The notes beneath the pieces were generated by a model that did not search any database, was not told the origin of the DNA, and saw nothing but the letters and a program-made list of their open reading frames with translations. Below are positions 12,514 to 64,000 of a stretch of 64,000 nt of DNA, piece by piece. Both the position numbers and the translations under genes were made by a program. The stretch spans positions 1 to 64,000 of IMG/VR virus record IMGVR_UViG_3300011116_000796, one strand, 5' to 3'. Within the stretch, counting starts at the first letter, position 1. Each line of letters opens with the position of its first letter. The stretch comes from a virus.

Positions 12514-12541
12514 TTGACATTGGCAGTTTATGGGATACAAT
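12514..12541 (+). promoter_or_regulatory. Sigma70-type promoter of primase, leaderless layout
   Basis: TTGACA (12514-12519), 16-nt spacer, TACAAT (12536-12541), then 7 nt to the ATG at 12549. The expected transcription start falls on or next to the start codon. The same layout recurs at uvsY and rnh. Confidence 0.75.
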
Positions 12542-14628: not shown

Positions 14629-16905
<2,277 letters not shown>

Positions 16906-16915
16906 ATAAATTCCC

Positions 16916-17962
16916 ATGAGTAATGTAATTAAAATAAAACGTGGTGTGACCGGAGGAATAATACCCGTTGGGCTGACCTTCGGTGAATTAGCAGTCAACA
17001 TCGTTGATAAAAAATTATTCGTTGGTGGAATCACAGGAGAAACAATTGAACTTCTCGGTGGTGCATCTGAAATATCAGGTTCCGCATTTCCGATTGCATC
17101 AAACACAGTAACCGGTGCAGCATCGTTTGACCCAAGATTTTTCGCAGTCGGTTCAACAGGACACGTTGCATTTCTTGGTGCGACAACTGTAGAAATTTGG
17201 ACAAATGTAGATGCAGGATATGCAAATGGAATTGCGAGTGGAATTACGTTTAGTGTTGGGTCGAGTGCGATAGATGTATTAGAGCAGTTAATATACCCAT
17301 ACCAATCGGTTTCCTTCTCTGCTTTTACGGTTGGGTTGGCTAGTAATACGTTTGATCTTGGTCAGACATCTGCCGCTGGAAGTTATTCATCGACATGGAC
17401 TACGAGTGGTCCAGCGTCAAATTGGGTCGCTGGATCAGTAAACATATCAATTGTTTCTGGCTCAAATCTCGCAACAGGACTTAACTACAACTCATCACCA
17501 TATAGCATATCACACTCTCCTTATTTGTATTCAACTCCATCAACATTATCTTTCAGTTTAACTGGACAACAAATATCAGGAACTGAGATTGTTACTGCCA
17601 CACCAAAAACTTACAGTTGGTTGCACCGAATATATTTTGGAAAGAGTTCTTCCGCTGCCCCAACTTCAATATCGAATTTGACAACTGGTCAAACAAGTAG
17701 ATATACCAGTTCAACTAGTTCTTTAGGTAACTATACATATTCATTCATAGCATCAGGTAGTGCAGAATATTGTTATGTTGTAGTTCCGACTTCTCCAGGA
17801 AGTCCTGGATCATACACTACATGGCGAGATGCGAATAATCTTGTATTTACTCCCCAAGAAGGAACTTTCACAGAAACCAATTCACATGGAGTTTCCATTT
17901 CATGGAAATGGTATAGAGTAGCGAATCCAACGACCGGAACAATATCAGTTTCTGCATCATAA
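16916..17962 (+). CDS. Tail fibre protein with Mtd_N-type anchor (1)
   Basis: 348 residues. The N-terminus VIKIKRGVTGG...GLTFGELAVN...KLFVGG matches the major-tropism-determinant N-terminal type that docks phage fibres. GAASFDPRFFAVGSTGHVAF near residue 62 is the module repeated in the neighbouring fibres. The remainder (about 100-348) is Ser/Thr/Gly-rich beta structure ending in TGTISVSAS, probably the receptor-binding part. There is no ribosome site; the late box ends 7 nt before the ATG. It is one of four proteins in the cluster with this anchor. Confidence 0.75.
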   Translation: MSNVIKIKRGVTGGIIPVGLTFGELAVNIVDKKLFVGGITGETIELLGGASEISGSAFPIASNTVTGAASFDPRFFAVGSTGHVAFLGATTVEIWTNVDAGYANGIASGITFSVGSSAIDVLEQLIYPYQSVSFSAFTVGLASNTFDLGQTSAAGSYSSTWTTSGPASNWVAGSVNISIVSGSNLATGLNYNSSPYSISHSPYLYSTPSTLSFSLTGQQISGTEIVTATPKTYSWLHRIYFGKSSSAAPTSISNLTTGQTSRYTSSTSSLGNYTYSFIASGSAEYCYVVVPTSPGSPGSYTTWRDANNLVFTPQEGTFTETNSHGVSISWKWYRVANPTTGTISVSAS

Positions 17963-20326: not shown

Positions 20327-22858
20327 ATGCCGCATGAAAGCACTATAAAAGTTTATAGGTCAAGTACAGTTGGTTCAATTCCAAATGGATTAACCGATGG
20401 TGAACTCGCAGCAAATTTGGCTGATGGCAAAATTTTTGTGGGTAATGGAAATGAAGTTATAAATTTTGAATCAAATCCACACAACAACGTCGGAGCATCA
20501 GGTTCAGGTATAGAGTTAGTCTCTGCTTACGCAGGAAGTATTCACCTTTCAGTTCCGAAAAGAACCAATCTAATTCTTTATAGTCACGATTTCGTTTCTT
20601 CTGGATTTCCAAATTCTTGGTCTTCGTTTTCCGGCAACGGATCTCCTCCATATCCAACTATTACCAATTTGGATAATGACTCAACTCAGGGTTGGCAGGG
20701 GAGTGCTACGGGAGGGTTCCAAATTGAATTCATTAACCCTGCTGATTCTAACAATGGGGTGTATCAGGAAATAAGAACTCCCCATTTGGTAACGGGAGAA
20801 TATTACACTCTATCATGCTGGGCAAGATCTAATTCGGGGGAGACAAAGTTTAGATTTAGTGACTACAACTACATTACAAATATAAGTAGATTCTCAGACA
20901 AATTTATTGCAACAACAGATCCACAAAGATTTCATTATGTATTTCGTCCCGAAGCAAGAACAAATATTAGTATATCAAACGGGGATGCCAATTCATCGGG
21001 AACCATTCGTGTTTGGGGTATTCAACTTGAAAGGGGAACATTCCCATCAAGTCCAATAAGATCAGATGGAACTGAAACAACGGCATCTGCTTCGATTATC
21101 TCATTTGCATCTTCATCCGCATCGTCTGTTGCTGGTGTCACGGGTTTCAATAGTCTTACTGGAAATGTGAGTTTAACTGGTCACACAGGTGGTGCAGTTC
21201 GTGTTGTAGAAAACAATAAAGTCGATATTCGAATTGCTACTAGTTCTGTTACTGGTGTTGCTGCGTTCAATTCAACTTATTACTCAGTTAGTGCTGCTGG
21301 CGTTGTAAGTCCTACTACTCCATTTCAATTCACAGGAGATACAGTATCTACTGTATCAGGAAGTGGTATAACAGTAACAAAGAATTCGTCGGGAGCAGTA
21401 GTTTCTAATATTGGTGTGACTGGAATTGGATTTAGTAATACCGATGTTGGATTGACTGGAAAAATCAATCTAACCGCAGGAACTGATATTTCCCTGATAC
21501 GATCAGGAAATACAATAACAATCAACTATACTGGAACTCCAAGTTCCGGTGGCGATACAGTATCGGCAGGAGATTCAATTCAAGTAGTTCGATCAGGAAC
21601 TAATGTAACTCTAAACAATGCTGGTGTTACTGGAATTGCATTTGGGAATACTGATCCTGGATTGACTGGAAGAATAGTTTTAACTGGAAATGCAGCATCA
21701 GGGATAATTCTCTCTAAACCAACCAACTCAAATATAATAACTCTAGTCAATATTGGTGTCACGGGTTTCAATGGTCTTACTGGAAATGTGAGTTTAACTG
21801 GTTATGTTAGTGGTGCAGTTCGTGTTGTAGAAAACAATAAAGTCGATATTCGAATTGCTACTAGTTCTGTTACTGGTGTTGCTGCGTTCAATTCAACTTA
21901 TTACTCAGTTAGTGCTGCTGGCGTTGTAAGTCCTACTACTCCATTTCAAACAACTGGAGATACAGTCAGAGCAAATTGGCCTATAAAACAAACAATTACC
22001 GGAAAAAGAGTAATATTAGATATAGATCAGCCAACATGTTGGGATCCATTTAATGTTTATCCAGATACTAATGGATACTATTATCCAGGAAATTCCCTCG
22101 GAACCGTTTCTTCTACTGAAAGACCTGGTGCCACATTTGGGCTGAGTGGTGCATCTCCTGGATTTTGGTATAAGCATTTTCTTTTAGCGAAAAGTGCAGA
22201 TGCCTATAATCCTGATATCTCTACAGATGAAACAGTCAATAGAACAGATTATTGTTTGTTTTTAAGAACGACATCTGGACCAGGTGGTTTGCTGCAAACC
22301 CCATTTGGTGCATCTGGATCAGGAATAGGTACGACTGGAACTACTAGCGGAATATTGAAGTATTTTTATCTAGACATAAACAATCTAGAAACTGCAACAA
22401 ATACATTATCGTCAAATGACAATATACTCATTTACGATGCAGCCGAAACCGGAGAGATCAAGACCAAAAAGGCTTCTGTAAGTAAGTTTTTTCTTGACAA
22501 TGACACAATATTTACAAGTTTGTCACCGGATCAACTAAAAAGAAACACAAAATCTTCTGCTATTGAATTTGAGGTAGTTCTAGGTGATGTTAGTAGTAAT
22601 AGCCTGGGACTCATAAATGGTGCATCAGCACATTCATATATCACTAAAAATACTGTAAAATCTATAAATGGTTGTACGGGACAAATTACAATCACCGGAA
22701 CAGTAAACGAGGTTGTTGTTACGAACAACTGCCCAACTATTGTAATCGGATTGCCCGACAATGTGATGGTTCCCTACATTAGCATATCGGGTGGAACTTT
22801 CACCGAAACCGTAAGTGCGAACCTATTCATAGGAAGTATCGCAGGGGGAACCTTCTAA
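20327..22858 (+). CDS. Tail fibre protein with Mtd_N-type anchor (3) and inserted carbohydrate-binding-like domain
   Basis: 843 residues. The anchor STIKVYRSSTV...GLTDGELAAN...KIFVGN is followed (about residues 75-245) by a beta-sandwich module opening NLILYSHDF and closing WGIQLERGTFPSSPI, a pattern of carbohydrate-binding-like domains found in many phage tip proteins. Then come shaft repeats: two copies of a GF-NGLTGNVSLTG block and two VTGI(G/A)F(S/G)NTD.GLTG blocks. The last 250 residues hold a separate globular region, SINGCTGQITITG, and end in SIAGGTF. The DNA repeats shared with the upstream gene suggest growth by recombination. The binding-like insert makes this the likeliest glycan-recognising fibre (inference). 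Confidence 0.8.
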   Translation: MPHESTIKVYRSSTVGSIPNGLTDGELAANLADGKIFVGNGNEVINFESNPHNNVGASGSGIELVSAYAGSIHLSVPKRTNLILYSHDFVSSGFPNSWSSFSGNGSPPYPTITNLDNDSTQGWQGSATGGFQIEFINPADSNNGVYQEIRTPHLVTGEYYTLSCWARSNSGETKFRFSDYNYITNISRFSDKFIATTDPQRFHYVFRPEARTNISISNGDANSSGTIRVWGIQLERGTFPSSPIRSDGTETTASASIISFASSSASSVAGVTGFNSLTGNVSLTGHTGGAVRVVENNKVDIRIATSSVTGVAAFNSTYYSVSAAGVVSPTTPFQFTGDTVSTVSGSGITVTKNSSGAVVSNIGVTGIGFSNTDVGLTGKINLTAGTDISLIRSGNTITINYTGTPSSGGDTVSAGDSIQVVRSGTNVTLNNAGVTGIAFGNTDPGLTGRIVLTGNAASGIILSKPTNSNIITLVNIGVTGFNGLTGNVSLTGYVSGAVRVVENNKVDIRIATSSVTGVAAFNSTYYSVSAAGVVSPTTPFQTTGDTVRANWPIKQTITGKRVILDIDQPTCWDPFNVYPDTNGYYYPGNSLGTVSSTERPGATFGLSGASPGFWYKHFLLAKSADAYNPDISTDETVNRTDYCLFLRTTSGPGGLLQTPFGASGSGIGTTGTTSGILKYFYLDINNLETATNTLSSNDNILIYDAAETGEIKTKKASVSKFFLDNDTIFTSLSPDQLKRNTKSSAIEFEVVLGDVSSNSLGLINGASAHSYITKNTVKSINGCTGQITITGTVNEVVVTNNCPTIVIGLPDNVMVPYISISGGTFTETVSANLFIGSIAGGTF
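21134..21268 (+). repeat. Fibre repeat unit B, copy 2
   Basis: 135 bases, nearly identical to 19621-19755. Confidence 0.85.
21257..21417 (+). repeat. Fibre repeat unit A, copy 2
   Basis: 161 bases, nearly identical to 19465-19625; the order here is B then A, the reverse of the first gene. Confidence 0.85.
21755..21889 (+). repeat. Fibre repeat unit B, copy 3
   Basis: 135 bases, nearly identical to the other two B copies. Confidence 0.85.
21878..21949 (+). repeat. Fibre repeat unit A, copy 3 (truncated)
   Basis: The first 72 bases of unit A are conserved, then the sequence diverges abruptly after CCATTTCAA, which marks a recombination boundary. Confidence 0.8.
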
Positions 22859-22861
22859 ATA
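22854..22861 (+). promoter_or_regulatory. Late promoter box TCTAAATA overlapping a stop codon
   Basis: The TAA of the preceding gene (22856-22858) is in the box. It is 10 nt before the ATG at 22872, with no strong ribosome site. Confidence 0.65.
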
Positions 22862-28883: not shown

Positions 28884-28891
28884 GATAAATA
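28884..28891 (+). promoter_or_regulatory. Late promoter box GATAAATA, leaderless layout
   Basis: 8 nt before the ATG at 28900, with no ribosome site in the gap. Confidence 0.6.
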
Positions 28892-28899
28892 GTAGTCCT

Positions 28900-31713
28900 A
28901 TGCCAATTGAAACATCACATTTTAGAGTATTTAACTGCTATCCATCATTTACCAATGTTTATTTTCATTCGGGTAAAACTGGAACAAATCCAATTCCCAA
29001 TTATGGCAGCATGGGTTTTCATCTGAAGGACTATTTCGAAAATAGAATGTCTGAAACTCCTGTATCGGGATGCGATTATCTGGTCGCATTTTTGGCATCA
29101 AGTAAAAGTTTGACAGGAATTATGCAAAATGACCTAACAGGTATGGCAAATTCTGCCTCGGTCGATTTTGGCATTACACATTCAACTGAGGGATTTGGTC
29201 TTCTAGACTTCAGAGGTGATTCTTGGAAGCATCTTGTTGGTGACGGAATAATTGGACAAAGTAGTACAACAAACTATCAAGCATACACAGATACAGTATC
29301 TGCTGCTGTGAACATTTTAGATCACTTTAGTAGTAAATATCCCATGATTAAGTGGGCATATGCAGGACTACCTTCATTACCGAAATACACATGTTTTGCT
29401 CCAACTGCTGGATCATCTTTCGCATGGTCACAAGGATTGACAAATACACCCGGTGCAACAAATAATCACTGGGATGCAGCACATCCGACAGGTGCATCTT
29501 ATGGTGAACAGATCTTTGAGTGGTCTAGGTCTCCAAGCAAACTAACGACATACTTCAATACAAATTCGATTGATAGATGCAGAACCGTTCTTGAAAATTC
29601 TGGTTGGGCTTGTCCTGACATTAATCCTGTTGCCACAAATAACACAGAATTCGGTGTCAACATTCACTCTGTGGTTGATCATCACAGGTACACAAGAGAT
29701 CTTGTTAAAATTGCAAATGATTTTGCAACAACGCAGCATGCACTTGAAAGAGACTTTAAGGTTATGCCTCTCGTTAATAGCATGTTGAGATCCAGAGAAA
29801 TTCATGTATTTGATGATCCTAATGGTCAATTCACTAACACTTACGGGATGGCATTTGGGGCTAGTGGGGAAATTGTTAATTTCTATTCTGGTTTTACAGG
29901 GGCATCTGGAATGGGAGCATCCGGTGCAGCAGATTCAGATGTGAGCACAGAGTTTTTGAGGGCTGGTATGCTTGAGCCTGCTGCCTTTGCGGGTGCAGTT
30001 GGATTTGTATATCAGGACAATATTCCTCTTTTAGTTGAGTTGGCTTGTACTGGATCCACTTCTATTTCAGGAGATGATGCAGAAGCAACAATCAGAGCGA
30101 GAAATTACATAGCCAAAAAGGTGTATAATACATCAAACACAAGCCTAATTCCTTGGAATAGTGTTAGAAATGAAGTTCTTATTGATTTGTCTTTAAATGT
30201 AACAGCAATTCAACTCAGAACTTTCCCTGAGAGTATTCCGATTGGAAATGGATGGGCTTTAAGAAGTACCTCTCAAACAAGAGAACAATTTCCATCAGAA
30301 AGTTTAAATGTCGAGCAATACAGAAGTGTTAGATGGAAACAATGTGGATCGAATTGTTCAACTCCAGCAAACGAGGGAGAAAATCCGGAATATATGCCAT
30401 TTAGAGATGGCAGTGATATTGAATGTGATTGTGGTGGTGGTGGATGTCCAAAAGGAGTTTGTTGTGTTTCGGTTGGGGGAATTGGATACTGCTCTGACAG
30501 TTATCAGGGATCTGCACCAGGATCCGGAATATGTGAAAACGCCTGCAATCTGAATGGTGTTGGTGGAAGATTCATCGCATTTAGTGATCCGTTGTTTGGT
30601 GCAGGAATTCCGAAAACTTGTGCTTCTCTTATTCCTGGTGGCCCATTAGCAGCACAAGGTTCAGGATTTGGATGTTGGACACAAATTGGTCCACATGATC
30701 CCGATTATGTAAACTACTGCAATAATCAGGGATTGATTGTACCAAACGAAAACCGACCATGTATACAAATTAAGTTCTGCGAATATCCATGTTCGAATTG
30801 TGATGCTGGATATCTGCCTGATTCACAGGGGGGGTGTAATAATAGATGTCCAGATTTTCCGGGAGTTCCCGACACATATCCTTTCTCAGTGTATCAACGT
30901 AAATGCAGAGAATACAGAAATGATCCAGAAGTTTGTTGTTGCGTAGATGTTGATAGTGATGGTGACTCAGATGCTAGACCTTCGCAATGTTTTGCTGGTA
31001 GTGCTGGTGGAGGTGCAGCAGGAACACCGAGTGGAGGTGGACCATTTAATGGTTCGGGTTTGTATGGTGCTGCAAATTGTGACAGAGATTTACAAGACTG
31101 GCAGCAGGCTGGAAATCCACCGGGATCAGAAATTATCCCTGATGGTCCGTGTACTAGATCATTTCAAAGTGGAGGGCAAGGCGGAACTGATGTGTTTAAC
31201 TGTATTCACCCATGTGCAGACTCCGTTCAAATTGATTCATCGCTTTGTCAGTGTTGTGGGCTGAAGAGAACCGATTACAGTGGTCAGGAAGAATCGTGCT
31301 GCTCCAGAAAAAGTCCTGGTGGTGCTCATTGTGCGGGCTTACAGCAACTTTGTAATTGTGGTGGTGCAGGATTTGGGGATTGGAAACCCATTAACTATCA
31401 ATTCTTCACAGATTCGTCCATATCAGATAGTATGAAGAAACTAGTAATAAGTGATCTTTACGGTCTTCTAGAACCCGAAAGCACGGTATACAAGTTCTAC
31501 GATAATATATTCAGAAAATTCCCCGAATTCTCTAATATGAGAACACCTGGTACCGTTGGAAACTCATTACCATATTTCGGAAGTATACTCAAAGACTCCA
31601 AAAATACAAATAAATCTCTGTATTATAATTACACACCATCAATACAGACAATAAACAGAATTAAGTCAGAATTTGCTTTTGATAGACTAATCAAACCAAT
31701 TTCTTATACATAA
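28900..31713 (+). CDS. Large putative virion protein with cysteine-rich C-terminal half
   Basis: 937 residues. Residues 1-480 are a Gly/Ser/Asn-rich mixed fold without cysteine clustering. From C482 to C820 there are 36 cysteines in about 340 residues, including GCPKGVCC, EVCCCVDVDSDGDSDA (a Ca-binding-like acidic loop), LCQCCG and ESCC, a density typical of disulfide- or metal-stabilised domains. The last 110 residues are again normal, with a helical end. No signal peptide is visible. The late promoter suggests a virion role. I recognise no family; a metal-binding or oxidised extracellular appendage is inferred. Confidence 0.65.
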   Translation: MPIETSHFRVFNCYPSFTNVYFHSGKTGTNPIPNYGSMGFHLKDYFENRMSETPVSGCDYLVAFLASSKSLTGIMQNDLTGMANSASVDFGITHSTEGFGLLDFRGDSWKHLVGDGIIGQSSTTNYQAYTDTVSAAVNILDHFSSKYPMIKWAYAGLPSLPKYTCFAPTAGSSFAWSQGLTNTPGATNNHWDAAHPTGASYGEQIFEWSRSPSKLTTYFNTNSIDRCRTVLENSGWACPDINPVATNNTEFGVNIHSVVDHHRYTRDLVKIANDFATTQHALERDFKVMPLVNSMLRSREIHVFDDPNGQFTNTYGMAFGASGEIVNFYSGFTGASGMGASGAADSDVSTEFLRAGMLEPAAFAGAVGFVYQDNIPLLVELACTGSTSISGDDAEATIRARNYIAKKVYNTSNTSLIPWNSVRNEVLIDLSLNVTAIQLRTFPESIPIGNGWALRSTSQTREQFPSESLNVEQYRSVRWKQCGSNCSTPANEGENPEYMPFRDGSDIECDCGGGGCPKGVCCVSVGGIGYCSDSYQGSAPGSGICENACNLNGVGGRFIAFSDPLFGAGIPKTCASLIPGGPLAAQGSGFGCWTQIGPHDPDYVNYCNNQGLIVPNENRPCIQIKFCEYPCSNCDAGYLPDSQGGCNNRCPDFPGVPDTYPFSVYQRKCREYRNDPEVCCCVDVDSDGDSDARPSQCFAGSAGGGAAGTPSGGGPFNGSGLYGAANCDRDLQDWQQAGNPPGSEIIPDGPCTRSFQSGGQGGTDVFNCIHPCADSVQIDSSLCQCCGLKRTDYSGQEESCCSRKSPGGAHCAGLQQLCNCGGAGFGDWKPINYQFFTDSSISDSMKKLVISDLYGLLEPESTVYKFYDNIFRKFPEFSNMRTPGTVGNSLPYFGSILKDSKNTNKSLYYNYTPSIQTINRIKSEFAFDRLIKPISYT

Positions 31714-31734: not shown

Positions 31735-31848
31735 ATGTCAGAATTTCTAGGTACAACTTGGTGGAGTGTATTGATGTTTGTTGCTGGTGCTTTGATCGGC
31801 GCACCGCTGTGGAAGTGGGTTTCGACAAAACTTCCATGGAATAAGTAA
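31735..31848 (+). CDS. 37-residue single-pass membrane miniprotein
   Basis: Encodes MSEFLGTTWWSV, then a hydrophobic helix (LMFVAGALIGAPL) and a basic end (KWVSTKLPWNK). The ribosome site is nearly perfect (AAAGGAG, 31722-31728, 6 nt from the ATG), which supports a real gene. A strong terminator follows. Similar tiny TM proteins are known in T4-like phages of aquatic bacteria; the function is unknown (membrane association, possibly lysis or superinfection). Confidence 0.7.
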   Translation: MSEFLGTTWWSVLMFVAGALIGAPLWKWVSTKLPWNK

Positions 31849-31873
31849 ATTGCGAATATTGTTCGTAAAAACG

Positions 31874-31903
31874 ACGGGGGGAGAAATCCCCCCGTTTTCT
31901 TTT
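31874..31903 (+). terminator. Rho-independent terminator
   Basis: An 8-bp stem ACGGGGGG (31874-31881) / CCCCCCGT (31888-31895), a 6-nt loop and a TTTTCTTTT tract. Confidence 0.9.
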
Positions 31904-31918
31904 CAGATTGGGTTGTCT

Positions 31919-31926
31919 GCTAAATA
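31919..31926 (+). promoter_or_regulatory. Late promoter box GCTAAATA, leaderless layout
   Basis: 7 nt before the ATG at 31934, with no ribosome site. It lies just after a terminator, so this promoter starts a new unit. Confidence 0.65.
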
Positions 31927-31933
31927 TAAGTAA

Positions 31934-32146
31934 ATGCCCAAAAATTATCTAGATTTAATCCGATCTTTAGAGGAATGGTCTGCTCCCACCTCTCATACCG
32001 CTAGAGTCACCTCTAGATTAAGCACTCGTACAGACTTGTCTAGGAAGGCTAAGAAGCCAAGCGTAGTACAACCAACGCAGATACCGTTCAGCAAGAAAGA
32101 GAAGGCAGTCAGGGGCATCCATGGCTTTCAGATAGGGGAGAAGTAA
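31934..32146 (+). CDS. Small basic protein, unknown
   Basis: 70 residues, very basic and Ser/Thr rich (TSRLSTRTDLSRKAKKPSVV). After an N-terminal amphipathic helix (YLDLIRSLEEW) it looks disordered. The stop overlaps the next ATG as TAATG, so it is coupled to the 1157-residue protein and might be its chaperone or partner. Supported by the promoter and coupling more than by homology. Confidence 0.6.
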   Translation: MPKNYLDLIRSLEEWSAPTSHTARVTSRLSTRTDLSRKAKKPSVVQPTQIPFSKKEKAVRGIHGFQIGEK

Positions 32147-38813: not shown

Positions 38814-39401
38814 TCACTCCATCAAGTCTTCTAGATTTTGTTTGGTAGACTTGCGCTTTCTGCGCTTTTTCTTGATAATCTTACTCTCGGATGTACCTTC
38901 GAAATTCTTCACATCGTTATCACTCAACGAGAAGTAATCTGCATATGGATTTTCACTTCTCGGCTCTGAATCGGAGAACTTGCTGTCCTCAACCATACGA
39001 TTTCTGAACTTACCAGTTTTGTCGGAGTTTTCAAAGCACTTCATCTTCACAAAGAGTTGCTTCTTCTCTTTAGTAATTCGTCTGAGAAATGCGTAGTAGA
39101 TAATCTGTGTGAAGAATGCGAAAGGATTTCTAGACTTCTTCTCATCAAAATTGGCGGTATACATGATGCAGTTCTCTATACCGTCAGAGATCATTTCTTC
39201 CTTGAAGATGTAGTTGGCAAAGTTGGGCTTCTTTGCTAGATTATTGGCAATGTCGAGAAAGCATTGACCAATGTAGTTAGAAACACCTGGTGGTTTCTCG
39301 CCTACCTTTTTGGCTTTCTGATGGGCTTTCTTGTACTCAATAAGTTCCTCAAGGAACCTTTGGTTATCGATATAGTGGTTTTCTTTTTTGCGTTTAGCCA
39401 T
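38814..39401 (-). CDS. gp55: Late sigma factor gp55
   Basis: 195 residues (T4: 185). The segment YIFKEEMISDGIENCIMYTA, then FDEKKSRNPFAFFTQIIYYA and FLRRITKEKKQ, aligns with the T4 gp55 core region that recognises late -10 boxes. The C-terminus NLEDLME resembles T4 SLDFLYE, the sliding-clamp-binding end. It recruits host core RNA polymerase to TAAATA promoters, which are abundant in this window, and works with gp33 and the clamp. No late box or clear sigma70 promoter lies immediately before its ATG. Confidence 0.9.
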   Translation of the reverse strand: MAKRKKENHYIDNQRFLEELIEYKKAHQKAKKVGEKPPGVSNYIGQCFLDIANNLAKKPNFANYIFKEEMISDGIENCIMYTANFDEKKSRNPFAFFTQIIYYAFLRRITKEKKQLFVKMKCFENSDKTGKFRNRMVEDSKFSDSEPRSENPYADYFSLSDNDVKNFEGTSESKIIKKKRRKRKSTKQNLEDLME

Positions 39402-39617: not shown

Positions 39618-39984
39618 AGGCGAGTTCTTCGCCATCATCTTCCTCATCATCAAAGAAATCATCTTTCGCATCCTCAAGGTCTTCGTTGGCGTTGAAAAGG
39701 TCAAACTTGATCTTGGCATCATTGTAGTCCTTGAGAATATCGTTGTACGGATTGGAAACACAGACCACCACACTTTCGGGAACGATAAACATCTCGTCCT
39801 TTGAAAATTCGATCCAAGGTCTGAGAAACATCATAGGTTCACCTGGTTTGCCAGTTTTCGACATGGGTGCAACAAATGAGATCGACATAGGTCTTTCAAA
39901 TTGATACACAGAACCTGTCTTTGCGATTCCGCAAATGATAGTTTCATTGCTTGCAAGACGGACTACCCTGATGGGATACATCAT
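39616..39984 (-). CDS. LSm-like protein with acidic tail
   Basis: 122 residues. The first 80 residues (YPIRVVRLASNETIICGIA ... FLRPWIEF ... VPESVVV) follow the same plan as the 102-residue LSm-like protein at 35650-35958, so they look like paralogues. The C-terminal 35 residues are extremely acidic (DDFFDDEEDDGEEL), a possible mimic of nucleic acid or a binding tail. It overlaps the uvsW stop by 4 bases, so it is co-translated with uvsW. The function is unknown. Confidence 0.65.
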   Translation of the reverse strand: MMYPIRVVRLASNETIICGIAKTGSVYQFERPMSISFVAPMSKTGKPGEPMMFLRPWIEFSKDEMFIVPESVVVCVSNPYNDILKDYNDAKIKFDLFNANEDLEDAKDDFFDDEEDDGEELA

Positions 39985-41504
39985 GTCTTTACCTTCCCGT
40001 AAACAGGTAACTTGACAATCTTGTATGGGAATCCTTCTTCGTCATACAACTTCATTCGTGATAGAAAGTGCTTGAATGTGTAGTTGACTTCATCTTCCCA
40101 ATGCAGATCATCTGCTATGTCATACAACTTTGCGATGTCTTTATTTTCCGACTTTCGAAGTTGTCTGCCAATGCTTTGTAGAATACGGATTCTGCTTTTC
40201 GAAGGGCTAGCAAAGATTAGGTTCTTCAGAGACTTGATGTTAATGCCTGTAGAGAATGTTCCATATGAAGCGACGATGATTGCATTATCTTCCTTCTCCA
40301 CAATGTGCCGAATTTCTTCACGGTCATCCACATCCGTTTCCCCTGCTACAAAGAACACTTTACGGTTCTCTATCTCAGTTGGTGCCATCTTGCGAATCAT
40401 CTCATACAAGGGTTTACCGTGCTTCTCAACATACTGAAACAGAACAAGAGTGTTTCCTTTAACTGATGTTGCTAGTTGAGAGATCATGAAATTGCGTTTC
40501 TCGCAGTTGACGATCCAATCGATTTCGTGCTGATAGTCAAGACCTCGTAAGGCTTCACGAATCTCCTGTGGATACTTGAACAATATGCATTCGATCTTTA
40601 GTGCTGTCAGCAATTCTCTTTCCATGAGTTGCTTCGTGGATACGACTTTGTTGACAGGTCCAAACAGACCTTCAATGCACAACTTGTGGATCTTTGTACC
40701 ATCAAGTGTTCCTGTGAGAGCAATTCGATATGGGCAATCCACTAACTTATTCATGATAGTTGTCAGAGACTGTGACTTGAACAAATGTGCTTCGTCGCCT
40801 ATCACTACTTCGAAATTATCAAACCAAGCCCGTGGCATTTTATGGATCGACTGCCATGTGGAAATCACTATCTGACGATCTGTGAGTTTAGTTGTGCCAC
40901 CATGAATTTTGTGGCAGTTTTTGTGAGTTACCCACCCTGAGTTCTTTGAGTAGTCATCAAAGTCCGCATACATCTGTGCAACAAGCGAGATAGTCGGAAC
41001 AACGATCAGCATCTTCCTTGAGGGATTGATTACATTTTGGTAGTACCGACATAGACTGTAAATGATCAGACTCTTTCCACTTGCAGTTGGTGATAGTAGA
41101 ACACAACGAGACTTATTGATAGCGTGGCAAAATGCGTCTACTTGGTGATCATGCGGATCAAGAGGTTGACCGCCTGCGGTAGGTTTGAGACTCTTGATGA
41201 AGTCTTTCGCCTTATCGCAGTTGATTTTGATTTCGGGACTTTCTAATAGCGAGTCCACTTCCATTGTGTATCCACGCTGCTGTGAAAACGCAGAAAGATA
41301 CTCGACCAAACCCGCAGGAAGAAGTCCCGAGTATGCATTGAAAAGACGGATTTTGCCGTCCCAGTATTTGTTTTTGAATGCGGGGGTAAACTTGGCACCC
41401 GGAACATCATAAGTGAAATAGTCTTGCAACTCATATGCGATTCCGTTGTCTGCAAGGACACGGATAAACGCAGAGTTTACATGACGAACACCTATCACAT
41501 TCAT
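39981..41504 (-). CDS. uvsW: Recombination DNA/RNA helicase UvsW
   Basis: 507 residues (T4: 503). A DEAD/H superfamily 2 helicase with Walker A SPTASGKSLI, IGDEAHLF (DEAH), LTGT (motif III) and QSIGRQLRK (motif VI). In T4 UvsW unwinds branched DNA and R-loops, suppressing origin-dependent replication when recombination-dependent replication starts, and is a late gene. A late box ends 7 nt before the ATG here, in agreement. No ribosome site lies before the ATG. Confidence 0.93.
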   Translation of the reverse strand: MNVIGVRHVNSAFIRVLADNGIAYELQDYFTYDVPGAKFTPAFKNKYWDGKIRLFNAYSGLLPAGLVEYLSAFSQQRGYTMEVDSLLESPEIKINCDKAKDFIKSLKPTAGGQPLDPHDHQVDAFCHAINKSRCVLLSPTASGKSLIIYSLCRYYQNVINPSRKMLIVVPTISLVAQMYADFDDYSKNSGWVTHKNCHKIHGGTTKLTDRQIVISTWQSIHKMPRAWFDNFEVVIGDEAHLFKSQSLTTIMNKLVDCPYRIALTGTLDGTKIHKLCIEGLFGPVNKVVSTKQLMERELLTALKIECILFKYPQEIREALRGLDYQHEIDWIVNCEKRNFMISQLATSVKGNTLVLFQYVEKHGKPLYEMIRKMAPTEIENRKVFFVAGETDVDDREEIRHIVEKEDNAIIVASYGTFSTGINIKSLKNLIFASPSKSRIRILQSIGRQLRKSENKDIAKLYDIADDLHWEDEVNYTFKHFLSRMKLYDEEGFPYKIVKLPVYGKVKT

Positions 41505-41511
41505 TCATTCG

Positions 41512-41519
41512 TATTTAGG
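41512..41519 (-). promoter_or_regulatory. Late promoter box CCTAAATA for uvsW, overlapping the uvsY stop
   Basis: Minus-strand box containing the uvsY stop (41517-41515). It ends 7 nt before the uvsW ATG at 41504, so the mRNA would be leaderless or nearly so. T4 uvsW is likewise late. Confidence 0.7.
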
Positions 41520-41959: not shown

Positions 41960-41987
41960 ATTGTATCTCCAAATCTTGAATTGTCAA
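41960..41987 (-). promoter_or_regulatory. Sigma70-type promoter of uvsY, leaderless layout
   Basis: TTGACA (41987-41982), 16-nt spacer, TACAAT (41965-41960), then CTACGCA (7 nt) and the ATG at 41952. Spacer and gap are identical to those of primase. Confidence 0.8.
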
Positions 41988-43844: not shown

Positions 43845-43872
43845 AGTATACAGTCAAATTTTTTCATGTCAA
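43845..43872 (-). promoter_or_regulatory. Sigma70-type promoter of rnh, leaderless layout
   Basis: TTGACA (43872-43867), 16-nt spacer, TATACT (43850-43845), then CGACGGT and the ATG at 43837. Its -35 element lies in a 15-bp palindrome. Confidence 0.75.
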
Positions 43873-43881
43873 GACTTGACA
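43867..43881. promoter_or_regulatory. 15-bp palindrome holding two divergent -35 elements
   Basis: TGTCAAGACTTGACA is a perfect inverted repeat (7+1+7). It supplies TTGACA on each strand, one for rnh and one for the small gene at 43959, so it could also be an operator. Confidence 0.65.
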
Positions 43882-43904
43882 GAACATAAAGGTAATGGTA
43901 TTAT
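43876..43904 (+). promoter_or_regulatory. Strong sigma70 promoter of the 43959 gene
   Basis: TTGACA (43876-43881), 17-nt spacer, TATTAT (43899-43904). Downstream in the leader, GCCCAA (43914-43919) and TTGGGC (43928-43933) form a 6-bp hairpin. Confidence 0.75.
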
Positions 43905-43958
43905 TGACGCAACGCCCAATTTGGATGTTGGGCTATTCGCATAGTTAGAGGCAGAAAA

Positions 43959-44189
43959 ATGAGCAAGAATACGCATGAAGGCGTTGAGCCGATGAAGGTG
44001 TACATCACTTCGATGGACAAGATGGCGACAGTTCGTAAGGTCGAGAATGACCCCATTTGGGGACCGCAGTACTTTGTTAGTACCTATTCCCGTGATTGGG
44101 GACCGGAGTTCTTTTGGGTCAAGGGTGACGATGCAACGGTCGTTGTGCGACCTGGACCTAACGAGAAAGGGCATTTGAGCGGTCTCTGA
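43959..44189 (+). CDS. Small early-type protein, unknown
   Basis: 76 residues. The core MKVYITSMDKMATVRKVE and QYFVSTYSRDWGPEFFW read as a small beta-barrel-like fold; the end is Gly/Pro rich. AGAGG precedes the ATG, and it has the strongest sigma70 promoter seen in the window, with a 54-nt leader containing a hairpin. Early expression would suit a host-takeover or regulatory role, which is inference. I recognise no family. Its stop lies in a 9-bp hairpin. Confidence 0.6.
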   Translation: MSKNTHEGVEPMKVYITSMDKMATVRKVENDPIWGPQYFVSTYSRDWGPEFFWVKGDDATVVVRPGPNEKGHLSGL

Positions 44190-44205
44190 ATATTTTTATT
44201 CAGAG
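44184..44205 (+). terminator. Stop-codon hairpin, possible terminator
   Basis: CTCTGAATA (44184-44192), loop TTTT, TATTCAGAG (44197-44205): a perfect 9-bp stem that contains the TGA stop. No U tract follows, so termination would be weak or Rho-assisted. Confidence 0.5.
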
Positions 44206-44208
44206 GCA

Positions 44209-44216
44209 ACTAAATA
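44209..44216 (+). promoter_or_regulatory. Late promoter box ACTAAATA, short-leader layout
   Basis: 8 nt before the ATG at 44225, with only AGAG in the gap. Confidence 0.6.
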
Positions 44217-44224
44217 GAGACACC

Positions 44225-44482
44225 ATGCCATTCTATGATTACATCTGTAGGGCTTGCAATCATGAGTTTGAGGAGATGCATCGCATCGCTGATCGCAAGA
44301 AGCCAACCAAGAAACCCTGTCCCAAGTGTAGTCAGAAGAAGGTAGAGCAAATCATCAAAGAGGCTCCATCTGCCTGCGACCCTATTCGGGTTGGCAGCGT
44401 AGGCAAGGTGGACAATGGATTCAGAGAAGTGATATCCAAAATCAAGAAAGCACACCCACGCCACAAAATGCGTGACTATTAA
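44225..44482 (+). CDS. FmdB-type zinc-ribbon protein
   Basis: 85 residues. MPFYDYICRACNHEFE (C8, C11) and PCPKCSQ (C32, C35) form a four-Cys zinc ribbon of the FmdB regulatory type; a basic C-terminal tail follows. Proteins of this kind are probable transcription or replication accessory factors, but the function in phages is unknown. The stop TAA is directly followed by the next ATG, so it forms an operon with the PD-(D/E)XK nuclease, gp33 and possibly gp32. Confidence 0.75.
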   Translation: MPFYDYICRACNHEFEEMHRIADRKKPTKKPCPKCSQKKVEQIIKEAPSACDPIRVGSVGKVDNGFREVISKIKKAHPRHKMRDY

Positions 44483-50992: not shown

Positions 50993-51595
50993 TTACTTAC
51001 TATATTTATTAGCCCATGTCCAAACTTCTTCACGGGTAGCACCCTGAAATTTCTCAAGGGGCATGAATGTGGTGTACTTCCATTCGTTTGATGGAACCAC
51101 ATTGATTTTGGTAACTACAGAACTAACTAGGTACCTTTTAATCGCAGCCCTGAACGGCTTTAGTTTAGGTAAACTCTGCAACATCGGGTATGTTACTTCA
51201 AAAAGTGCTTTGGGGGTCTTTGTGTAGTTTGGATTATCTACAAACCTAAGCAAGGAATTCAGGAAATTTGCTCTGATGTCAGGTCTTAAATAGTGTAAGT
51301 TCAGCCCTAGAAACGAGTCTGTTTCTTTATGAAGCATTATCACTAATGGGAAACTATCCCAAAATTTCAAGTTTTCGGTCTTGGGGTCGTAACCAAAAAA
51401 TAGCATTGCCCCCTCTTTGATTTTATTTGGGGATGTAATTTGAGAGGGGTGTTGGCGATTATAATGATCAGACTTGATTTGCGTCTTGATCTTTGAAAGG
51501 TTCGTAGCCAGCCACCTAGTGGACTCATTTGAGAACAGATCCTTTCCAGACCTGTCAAATTCAGTTAATATTCGGTTTACTTCTTTTTTACTCAT
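50993..51595 (-). CDS. Conserved T4-like phage protein next to gp4, function unassigned
   Basis: 200 residues. The core LKFWDSFPLVIML, then FLGLNLHYLRPDIRANFLNS and FRAAIKRYLVSSVVTKI, is a conserved pattern (WDxFPLV...GLNLHYL) of a small protein accompanying head-completion genes in aquatic T4-like phages. I cannot assign it firmly; a DNA-end or head-to-tail function (as for gp2 in T4) is a possibility by position. The start overlaps the gp4-like stop (ATGA), and its 3' end contains the late promoter for the next gene. Confidence 0.6.
   Translation of the reverse strand: MSKKEVNRILTEFDRSGKDLFSNESTRWLATNLSKIKTQIKSDHYNRQHPSQITSPNKIKEGAMLFFGYDPKTENLKFWDSFPLVIMLHKETDSFLGLNLHYLRPDIRANFLNSLLRFVDNPNYTKTPKALFEVTYPMLQSLPKLKPFRAAIKRYLVSSVVTKINVVPSNEWKYTTFMPLEKFQGATREEVWTWANKYSK
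51003..51010 (-). promoter_or_regulatory. Late promoter box AATAAATA for the gp54-like gene
   Basis: Minus-strand box, 13 nt before the ATG at 50989, inside the 3' end of the preceding gene. Confidence 0.55.
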
Positions 51596-52062
51596 TGATT
51601 ACCTGTTTTTGAGAATAAAACATCCTCTGTGATAATTTTGAACTCCCATCCTCGGTCCTCACAAACTTGTTTCGCCGCTGACCATTTAGCGTTATTGACG
51701 AGCCAATTTCGCATCTCTCTTATCTTAGACCTAGATGTTCTCTTATTTTTTGGAGGATCAGGTTTCTTGGTTTGTGCTTTTGGTTTTACTTCGATCAGAT
51801 ACTCTTTGTTTTCTCCGTCTTTGGTCTTAACTCTCACCCAAAAATCAACGAAGTATCTGTGTGCTTTTCCATCTATAGGAGAGATGTATTTGATTACAAT
51901 TTCTTCGGAAGACCATTCCAATATAGAGGAGTTCTCGTCGCAGAATATCATAAATTTCCGCTCCCACAAAGACCGATAGAAGCAGTTAGTCGGATTGCCC
52001 CTGTACTTCTCTGTGTTTTTGGGGCGATATTTACCTTTGTAACTTTCGTTGGATCTTTTGAT
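51592..52062 (-). CDS. gp4: Head completion protein gp4-like (TnsA-type nuclease fold), AUC start inferred
   Basis: 156 residues if it starts at AUC 52062 (T4 gp4: 150). Homology to T4 gp4 begins at SYKGKYRPKN...KYRGNPTN and runs through LWERKFMIFCDEN, EWSSEE, RYFVDFWV and YLIEVKPKAQ (nuclease-like E...D...ExK), ending KWSAAKQVCEDRGWEFKIIT. The first canonical start (TTG 51969) would remove the first 31 conserved residues. Between an in-frame stop (52092-52090) and the conserved region no ATG, GTG, TTG or CTG exists; AGGAGGG (52074-52068) lies 5 nt before AUC. A late box is upstream. Confidence 0.75.
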   Translation of the reverse strand: MKRSNESYKGKYRPKNTEKYRGNPTNCFYRSLWERKFMIFCDENSSILEWSSEEIVIKYISPIDGKAHRYFVDFWVRVKTKDGENKEYLIEVKPKAQTKKPDPPKNKRTSRSKIREMRNWLVNNAKWSAAKQVCEDRGWEFKIITEDVLFSKTGNQ

Positions 52063-52076
52063 ATGAACCCTCCTGT

Positions 52077-52084
52077 TATTTATC
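52077..52084 (-). promoter_or_regulatory. Late promoter box GATAAATA for the gp4-like gene
   Basis: Minus-strand box 14 nt before the inferred AUC start. It forms a divergent pair with the box at 52096. Confidence 0.65.
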
Positions 52085-52095
52085 GAAACTTATCT

Positions 52096-52103
52096 ACTAA
52101 ATA
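52096..52103 (+). promoter_or_regulatory. Late promoter box ACTAAATA for gp48
   Basis: Ends 5 nt before the first ATG (52109). An alternative in-frame ATG with GAGGG lies at 52154. Confidence 0.65.
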
Positions 52104-52108
52104 GTTCT

Positions 52109-53287
52109 ATGCTAGAAAATCTAAACTTATCTTCATTGATACCAGAGGGCGGAATGCCATCTCTCTCCTCACTTTATCCTGAGGGAGCAGTCAATTGGAC
52201 TTTAGAACAAGCCCGAGAAATCGCAAGATATGGAAAAGAGTCTTATAGCGAGTTATTTCAAGAGAAACTAACTGAACAGCCTAAGTCTGCTCCACCGATA
52301 CTTGTTTACCCTGCCGATCTTGGAAATTCTCAAGAGTATCAGTTTTCGGTTCGTTTTGATATCTACGAGACCGGTGGTTTGAATCTACGAAGACAGAGGT
52401 TTATTCAGGATAAGTTTGCACAACTTACGATAGAGTCTATTAGAGATGCAGGAGGAAGCCTGAGTGCAAAACAATTTCTGTCGCTGGCGGGTTCAGCGGT
52501 TTCCCCTGCTCTGGAGGCACTGACTATTCCTGAGTTACTCAATCCAGGAGTGAATTCAAATTCAGGCAGAGACACATTCGTAGAGGAACAAGTTGGATTG
52601 AATGATCTTACTGAACATGTTGCTACTGTATATTTGTATCTTCCAGGTGCATTAAACTTCGGTTATAAAATGGATTATCAAGATGCAGACAAGTCCGGTC
52701 TTGAAATCGGAAAATTACTGAGAAGTCTAACAGAGACACAAACTGAGGAGGGCGGGGCTATGCAAGCAGAAATTGCAAGGAAACTTGGATTTGCTGCTGT
52801 ACGAGCGGCGGATTCTGTGACTGAGTTGTTGGGTGGTAAGGATGCACTTTTAGCGGACATGCAATTAAAAAACAGACAGATTGAAAATCCGTTTAATGTT
52901 CACTTGTTCAGGGGAGTTGGGAGAAGATCTTTTAAGTTCTCTTTCAACATGATTCCGAGATCATATACTGAAGCAGTTGCAATAGATAACATCACAAGAA
53001 TTTTTAAACAGTATGCACACCCAAAAAGATCTGCTGGTGGAAGATTTTTGGATTTTCCCGCTGAGTTCGGGATTTCTTTCTTGTATCAGAACAAAGAGAA
53101 TATTCGTTTACCAAAAATTAGAAAGTGTGCGCTCACTGGAATAAATTTGGTCTACGGAGAAAACACATTTACAGCAACAAAACCTGATGCTATGGGTGTT
53201 GTTAGTCCAACTAAGGTAACTTTAGAACTTGAATTCAGTGAACTTGAAATTCTGACACAACAGAGTATCACAGAACAAGGAGCATAA
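52109..53287 (+). CDS. gp48: Baseplate tail-tube cap gp48
   Basis: 392 residues (T4: 364). It has the family plan: an N-terminal beta domain (PPILVYPADL...QYSVRF-like), a central variable helical stretch and a C-terminal tube-like domain (NPFNVHLFRGVGRRSFKFSF, then FLDFPAEFGISFLY, TGINLVYGENTF). gp48 caps the baseplate and starts the tail tube with gp54. The first ATG is at 52109, 5 nt from the late box and with no ribosome site; an in-frame ATG at 52154 has GAGGG and is the alternative start (MPSLSSLYPEGAV). Confidence 0.75.
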   Translation: MLENLNLSSLIPEGGMPSLSSLYPEGAVNWTLEQAREIARYGKESYSELFQEKLTEQPKSAPPILVYPADLGNSQEYQFSVRFDIYETGGLNLRRQRFIQDKFAQLTIESIRDAGGSLSAKQFLSLAGSAVSPALEALTIPELLNPGVNSNSGRDTFVEEQVGLNDLTEHVATVYLYLPGALNFGYKMDYQDADKSGLEIGKLLRSLTETQTEEGGAMQAEIARKLGFAAVRAADSVTELLGGKDALLADMQLKNRQIENPFNVHLFRGVGRRSFKFSFNMIPRSYTEAVAIDNITRIFKQYAHPKRSAGGRFLDFPAEFGISFLYQNKENIRLPKIRKCALTGINLVYGENTFTATKPDAMGVVSPTKVTLELEFSELEILTQQSITEQGA

Positions 53288-62605: not shown

Positions 62606-62613
62606 TCTAAATA
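62606..62613 (+). promoter_or_regulatory. Late promoter box TCTAAATA, leaderless layout
   Basis: 7 nt before the gp8 ATG at 62621, with no ribosome site. Confidence 0.65.
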
Positions 62614-62620
62614 AACAGCC

Positions 62621-64000
62621 ATGTCAAGTTGCGACCCATTTCGTCAAAATCACAAAAGATTCATAGTTGATACGCTTGTAAATCAATACAGCGATATCTC
62701 AGATGATAATCTGTACCTTAGTATAGGTAAAATTACTCCTTGGGGAGCAACTCAAGGTAGTGATATACCTGTAAGATCTTTGGATTCTGTGGAAGATGAT
62801 ACTAATTTTTGGCGGGGCATGATCGCAGCCAAAAGGATCAATAGATCAGATGTTTCGTTCGTCATTCGTAGGGTAGATTGGACATCGGGAACAGTTTATA
62901 CGGCCTACAGAAATAATGTCGATCTATTTGACGATCTGAGTCCAGCAGACTTTTATGCACTTGTTGATGAGGAAAGAGTTTATATCTGTATAGACAACAA
63001 TTTAGGCTCACAGTCTTTAATTCCACCCACTCACACAGATTCGATTGTTAGAAAATTGAGTGATGGGTATCGGTGGAAGTTTCTTTACCAAATTCCCGAA
63101 AGTAAACGAAAGTTCCTGACAAAGAGTAAAGTTGGTTCTATTGGGTACATGCCTGTTGAATTTGTTGAGTCTATTCGTGAAAACGATGATAGAGTGTTGC
63201 AATGGAATGTTCAGCAAGCAGCAGTAAATGGAAAAATAGAGTTTGCTTACATGGATGAACCCGCAAAAGCATATTGGGTTTCAAGTCCATCGTGTGTTCT
63301 TCCATCAAATGCAAATATAGTCGTTGACAATGTTGCATCTGGAGGGACTACAGTACAAATATCATCTCCTGAACTATCACCCAATTCAGACTTCTACACA
63401 AACATGATCATATCATTTGATGCTGGTCCTGGTCAGGGGCAGCGTAGAACCATCAAGGAGTATAATTGGCTTGGTGTTACGGCAAGAGTGGTCGTAGATC
63501 CACTTGTTCTTGGTATATCGGGATCATCAAATCCAAACACACAAACCTTCTTTAGTATTCAGCCTAAAGTCACAGTGAATGGTGATGGGTTTGCTAATAG
63601 TAACACATACAATCCAACAAATAGAACCGCAGATTTTCAGGTTAAGTTTGGTGAAACAGCAGGGGTATCAGCCGATTGTAGTAATATTTTGTCTCGGTAC
63701 GTCAAAAGTATCGAAATTGTAGATGGTGGCAAAGATTATACATTTATCGAACTCGACATTCCAAAGGGACTGACAACAGTATTTTCAAACACACCAAGAG
63801 AATATCTTGATCTGAAAAAGGTTCTTCATGGTGTCATCCCCCCTCCCGGAGGCCACGGTGCAAATCCATTCAAAGAACTTGGGTGTGCTGCATATATGAT
63901 TGTAAAGGATTTTGATGGGGATGAATTGGTTCAGGGAAATTGTGCTGAGGGGTGTACCGAAACAAGTAAATTGGATACGGACAATGATTTTAGACAATTC
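62621..64000 (+). CDS. gp8: Baseplate wedge subunit gp8 (3' truncated by the window end)
   Basis: The frame is open for 460 codons to the last base, so the 3' end is missing. The product is already longer than T4 gp8 (334). It shows the gp8 plan: YSDISDDNLYLSIGKITPWG near the start (T4 NTIFITFGRSEPW), FVIRRVDWTSGTVYTAYRNN, ERVYICIDNN and DGYRWKFLYQIPES. Later, inserted beta-rich parts (about 210-340) and CAEGCTE give extra domains. gp8 is a dimeric wedge protein joining gp7 and gp6. The mRNA is predicted to be leaderless. Confidence 0.85.
   Translation, partial: MSSCDPFRQNHKRFIVDTLVNQYSDISDDNLYLSIGKITPWGATQGSDIPVRSLDSVEDDTNFWRGMIAAKRINRSDVSFVIRRVDWTSGTVYTAYRNNVDLFDDLSPADFYALVDEERVYICIDNNLGSQSLIPPTHTDSIVRKLSDGYRWKFLYQIPESKRKFLTKSKVGSIGYMPVEFVESIRENDDRVLQWNVQQAAVNGKIEFAYMDEPAKAYWVSSPSCVLPSNANIVVDNVASGGTTVQISSPELSPNSDFYTNMIISFDAGPGQGQRRTIKEYNWLGVTARVVVDPLVLGISGSSNPNTQTFFSIQPKVTVNGDGFANSNTYNPTNRTADFQVKFGETAGVSADCSNILSRYVKSIEIVDGGKDYTFIELDIPKGLTTVFSNTPREYLDLKKVLHGVIPPPGGHGANPFKELGCAAYMIVKDFDGDELVQGNCAEGCTETSKLDTDNDFRQF

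Follow-up and report, generated by a model that had tools for sequence, protein, structure and literature searches.

Late transcription in phage T4 is a textbook system. Its promoters (gp55/gp33/gp45) share with those described here the TAAATA core, a gp55-type sigma factor and a set of late and structural genes that includes baseplate genes. They differ in the position of the box: none of 235 T4 genes carries a box 4-8 nt before its start, and the late genes of T4 are leadered, mostly with a Shine-Dalgarno sequence (SD). In T4 the late box extends from -13 to -6, and consensus variants closely related to TAAATA occur in other T4-type phages (PMC2988020). The marine Synechococcus phages S-PM2 and Syn9 share TAAATA boxes and (as checked in Syn9) a gp55 homologue, but their boxes lie at least 15 nt upstream of the start (mode ~20-25 nt) and form no short-gap class. 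A phage that likewise translates leaderless mRNAs is the Thermus phage phiYS40, during whose infection IF2 is reported to go up and IF3 down; it differs in its thermophile host, and the corresponding passage of the review (PMC3594737) mentions neither a gp55-type sigma factor nor a TAAATA box. In the literature searched, with most subscription journals outside reach, no report of leaderless transcription in T4-like phages was found.

The window analyzed here (64,000 nucleotides) opens a 119,654-base IMG/VR virus record, which, judging by PHROGs and Pfam matches, is a T4-like myovirus. T4-like genes for a gp48-like tube cap, baseplate wedge, tail tube and tape measure are present, and further matches (PHROGs/Pfam) include UvsW, UvsY, recombination exonucleases and a DNA end protector. 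A gp55-type late sigma factor is encoded at 38814..39401 (-) (phrog_234, E about 1e-54), and gp55 was present in all eight records tested. The gp45-slide_C Pfam model gave zero matches in the 119.7-kb record (possibly a fragment) and in its fragmentary relatives. A GDP-mannose dehydratase gene had matches at 41-61% identity across many phyla and indicated no host. The window's clade is represented here by metagenome contigs alone, and the record may be incomplete; genes come from a simple ORF caller, whose output was compared with the annotation for parts of the Pelagibacter phage HTVC008M.

The core of the box is TAAATA, usually preceded by C or A, which corresponds to the TATAAATA-type -10 box of T4-type late promoters. 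Treating starts as mutually independent, TAAATA at a gap of 5-8 nt was found before 8 of 112 starts versus 0.13 expected (p about 1e-12), and at a gap of 14-25 nt before 9 starts versus 0.39 expected (p about 3e-10). All eight short-gap starts are ATG. Seven of them had been listed in the first-pass annotation, correctly, as having gaps of 5-8 nt (7 nt at 16916, 8 at 28900, 7 at 31934, 7 at 41504(-), 8 at 44225, 5 at 52109 and 7 at 62621); the eighth (102534, gap 6) lies beyond the window. A test free of gene calling gave 7, 3, 7 and 5 matches at gaps 5-8 in the freshwater set, versus 0.72 expected each, and 23 versus 1.9 expected at a gap of exactly 5 in the pelagiphage-type set. The short-gap boxes could still be no promoter class at all, just a mixture of chance AT-rich hexamers, stop-codon overlaps and misplaced starts. 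Indeed, the total count of TAAATA in the window is no higher than chance (43 versus 42.8 expected), and two boxes overlap stop codons. The positional enrichment, strong in several phages, nevertheless refutes chance as an explanation of the class; moreover, the box is conserved against diverged flanks, and annotated HTVC008M starts coincide. Stop-codon overlap as the sole cause is also out, with only 16903 and 41512 among the seven overlapping a stop. We therefore consider this explanation very improbable.

The first-pass annotation had also divided the boxes into two spacing classes and had proposed a comparison of gap with anti-SD pairing energy. This comparison separated the extremes clearly: the median energy was about 0 (0.1) kcal/mol in the short-gap class, which thus has no SD, as expected of leaderless mRNA, versus -6.5 kcal/mol in the long-gap class, with 79% of the latter at or below -5. 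The part of the claim that holds is that short gaps lack an SD and long gaps mostly have one; the sharp divide does not, being blurred by gaps of 10-14 nt. Boxes at intermediate gaps of 10 (22872), 13 (50989, minus strand) and 14 nt (20327, 27625) have no clear SD either. The better divide, which is real, is between leaders shorter than ~9 nt without an SD and longer leaders with one. In part the absence of an SD from the short class is forced, because the box itself occupies the SD position.

The numbering of the T4 box implies that, with gaps of 5-8 nt, transcription starts on the A of ATG or 1-3 nt upstream of it; at a gap of exactly 5, the T4 +1 falls on the A of AUG. The best reading of the sequence is that the short-gap genes give leaderless or near-leaderless late, and in some cases early, mRNAs. 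The joint explanation that we favor, at a probability of roughly 85%, has four parts. The short-gap boxes would be true late promoters of the T4 type, recognized by the gp55-type sigma factor that the phage encodes, and transcription would begin on the A of AUG or up to ~3 bases before it. Ribosomes would recognize the 5'-terminal AUG instead of pairing with an SD. The remaining late promoters, further upstream, would yield leaders of the usual kind, most of them carrying a strong SD. Finally, uvsY, the primase gene and two further early genes would use sigma70-type promoters at an equivalent leaderless spacing. The earlier proposal of leaderless late mRNA thus gains support from the box numbering, from the conserved spacing and from the divergent or post-terminator positions of several sites, as detailed below. 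The late gene content (baseplate, uvsW) would fit a late, replication-linked activity.

In IMG/VR orthologues the box near the ATG is kept while the remaining upstream sequence diverges (relatives are tallied here as distinct sequences, not as independent events). The most extensive series is that of the gp48-like baseplate tube cap gene, whose box (52098..52103, +) lies 5 nt before ATG 52109, divergent to a gp4-like gene and with no sigma70-like promoter nearby. Across 26 distinct sequences the gp48 gap was 5 (10 sequences), 6 (4), 7 (5), 8 (4) or 9 (3), none falling outside 5-9 in a search that permitted 4-11; among the gap-9 cases, L400 and L422 are distant loci where the identity of the divergent ORF as gp48 is assumed. 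The FmdB-like Zn-ribbon gene at 44225 has its box at 44211..44216 (+), 8 nt before the ATG, and is divergent to the gene 43869-44174(-); a box at gap 5-11 recurs before this gene in L015, L026-L028, L031, L089, G003 and HTVC008M. Upstream of the box, on the side of the divergent start 44174(-), lies an 11-bp hairpin (44182..44207, +; -15.4 kcal/mol, z -5.9). At 31921..31926 (+) the box is 7 nt before ATG 31934 of a 70-aa ORF and was found at gaps 6-7 in L094, L024, G002 and G003. A predicted intrinsic terminator (31873..31896, +; -20.5 kcal/mol, z -3.3), expected to halt upstream transcripts, ends 24 nt before this box; between the gene 28900-31713 and the terminator there is also a ~37-codon ORF with an SD (31735-31848, +), too small to have entered the ORF list. 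Further along the record, a hairpin (102479-102508) with a T-rich tract behind it follows the gp23-like gene just upstream of the 102534 box. Strong hairpins thus stand directly 5' of three short-gap boxes (31873-31896, 44182-44207 and 102479-102508), and in two cases a T-rich tract comes after the hairpin.

Other short-gap sites are operon-internal. The box at 28886..28891 (+), 8 nt before ATG 28900 of a 937-aa ORF, is at gap 8 in L094, whose protein is 76% identical, and in G003 (34% aa identity), and at gap 7, with a displaced start, in G002. The one at 62608..62613 (+), 7 nt before ATG 62621 of a 788-aa gene that follows the baseplate genes, is kept at gap 7-10 in L012, L097, L102, L103 and L104. 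For uvsW (39981-41504, minus strand) the box at 41512..41517 (-), whose TAA is the uvsY stop codon, lies 7 nt before ATG 41504; gap 7 is preserved in L015-L028, L093 and G003 (69908), and more distant uvsW genes (<=52% identity) are without the box. The intermediate box at 22856..22861 (+), 10 nt before ATG 22872 of a virion structural protein gene with no SD, is at gap 10 also in G002. The site that had anchored the original observation, a box at 16903..16908 (+) 7 nt before ATG 16916 of a 348-aa unassigned ORF, is the weakest of all and could be due to chance: its TAA doubles as the stop codon of the preceding gene, and the box of the G003 orthologue is 20 nt away. Overall, gaps across the window's freshwater clade range over 5-11 with no single value, and a few leaders could therefore reach ~6 nt.

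Gene order bears on another possibility, that the boxes do act as late promoters but translation of the short-gap genes comes mainly from longer polycistronic mRNA by re-initiation or coupling after the upstream stop codon, any leaderless RNA being incidental. Such a mode would suit 16916, 41504, 62621, 22872 and 28900, which sit ~10-22 nt behind a co-directional gene, in particular 16916 and 41504, where the TAA of the box is the stop of the upstream gene. On the other hand, inherited leaders are unlikely for 44225 and 52109, both of them divergent first genes, and for 31934 and 102534, each immediately preceded by a strong terminator-like hairpin. A divergent pair of HTVC008M genes whose ATGs are 26 bp apart (see below) likewise argues against re-initiation. 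Furthermore, coupling predicts neither the 5-8 nt box spacing nor its absence from T4, Syn9 and S-PM2. We judge it improbable as the main route, although longer read-through mRNAs and re-initiation may also supply the operon-internal genes 16916, 28900, 62621 and 41504.

The proposed leaderless architecture would extend to early promoters, as the first-pass annotation had suggested. Strong sigma70-type matches near starts number eight in the genome versus 0.6 in shuffles, and four of the eight are 7-8 nt before an ATG: 12549 (primase), 41952 (uvsY), 106171(-) and 113357(-). The primase element (TTGACA-N16-TACAAT, 12514..12541, +) and the uvsY element (TTGACA-N16-TACAAT, 41960..41987, -) both end 7 nt before the ATG and are apparent leaderless early promoters. 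The uvsY promoter-ATG distance is kept in L015-L028 and G003, where the sequence between the hexamers diverges; this clade-wide conservation, together with the four matches, supports the early claim. No strong sigma70-type match fell in the 7-8 nt bin in T4, Syn9 or S-PM2. HTVC008M has 13 strong matches of this type, 6 of them placed 10-14 nt ahead of an ATG, a spacing that would leave leaders of a few bases.

To place the window among known phages, genes with a box at gap 4-8 were counted with one gene caller throughout (expected numbers in brackets). None was found in T4 (0.78), Syn9 (0.29), S-PM2 (0.36) or AG-345-L05 (0.46). There was one in pf16 (0.10) and two in Melnitz-2 (0.36), and the Prochlorococcus phages P-HM2 and P-SSM4 had two (0.30) and three (0.36), respectively. 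The Pelagibacter phages HTVC008M and Mosig had 16 (0.55) and 7 (0.74), and G005 had 4 (0.38). Within the window's clade we counted 6 in the window's record (G000), 3 in G001, 3 in G002, 4 in G003 and 3 in G009 (0.07-0.16); the value for G000 is 6, not 8, as this caller is stricter than the gene list, and 31934 and 44225 were missed or called otherwise.

HTVC008M and Mosig appear to have the same leaderless late architecture in a stricter form, with a gap of mostly exactly 5. In HTVC008M it is found partly on orthologous genes: the gp48 and FmdB-like regulator orthologues have gap 5 at 25-27% protein identity. In the divergent pair mentioned above, the annotated gp2 and head-closure genes of this phage (NC_020484.1, 18914-18945), the 26 bp from one ATG to the other are taken up by two TAAATA boxes standing back to back, both at a gap of 5 nt. 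Late-promoter prediction in pelagimyophages by cyanophage methods has been reported as unsuccessful (PMC7029224). In HTVC008M, Mosig and G005 together, 25 of the 27 short-gap genes have a pyrimidine directly before the AUG, versus 196 of 414 others (p = 1.6e-6); the corresponding figure in the freshwater set (10/16) was not significant (p = 0.13). A pyrimidine at -1 is the usual -1/+1 initiator preference. These data also bear on a further alternative, in which real short-gap promoters start several bases further upstream than those of T4 and leave a 4-8 nt leader without an SD. Gaps of 5-11 in the freshwater clade would be compatible with it, and our numbering assumes that the gp55 of this phage has the start-site offset of T4; however, HTVC008M, Mosig and G005 favor a gap of exactly 5, with a pyrimidine at -1, which argues against it, and we give this alternative little credence.

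If transcription indeed starts at or near the AUG, as we favor, the question is how such mRNAs are translated, and the neighbor of gp48 may offer a lead. The gp4-like head-closure gene (51592..52062, -; phrog_218, E = 2e-59) has its own late box at 52077-52082 (-) and an apparent ATC start at 52060-52062 (-) preceded by a strong SD (AGGAGG). No ATG, GTG or TTG occurs between the upstream in-frame stop and the conserved N-terminus. A canonical start is absent there in 22 of 54 distinct gp4-like homologues, and in 20 of these an SD-like match precedes an ATC, ATT or ATA at spacing 4-10. Other homologues have ATG, which in one lineage (L349/G009) follows the box at a gap of 5. The gene thus appears to start with AUC, AUU or AUA in about 20 lineages. 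IF3 normally disfavors both leaderless mRNAs and AUC/AUU/AUA starts. A common cause of the leaderless genes and of the non-canonical gp4 start is a lead rather than a demonstration. One tentative and on balance unlikely form of it is that the late program of this clade is adapted to IF3-poor initiation (leaderless AUG genes plus AUH-start gp4), where either the phage lowers IF3 or the host is relaxed, to the advantage of the phage.

More generally, the host may have relaxed initiation, or the phage may alter initiation factors as reported for phiYS40. Translation of leaderless mRNA is spared by kasugamycin (PMC5230787). Ribosomal protein bS21 is encoded by HTVC008M (91237), Mosig (9983) and G005 (49254), where the 5-nt spacing is strictest, and by Melnitz-2 (35461), and was not found in T4, the tested cyanophages, the window's record or its fragmentary relatives. 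HTVC008M and Mosig differ from the window's record in this respect, and the absence from the record and its relatives removes phage bS21 as a general enabler, leaving it part of the story at most. Neither is it obvious that the leaderless habit was copied from a Pelagibacteraceae-type host: two Pelagibacteraceae genomes yielded no match to a strict TTGAC-TATAAT-N5-8-ATG pattern, and the TAAATA signal was no more than weak in 240 kb of one of them.

If this reading is true, abundant phages make late structural genes from leaderless mRNA. In the uncultured freshwater relatives, as in marine Pelagibacter phages but unlike in T4, the promoter would sit on the start codon itself. In pelagimyophages, where published prediction was unsuccessful, TAAATA-N5-ATG would serve as a late-promoter rule, and the leaderless translation strategy would become testable in a cultured pair, HTVC008M and Pelagibacter HTCC1062.
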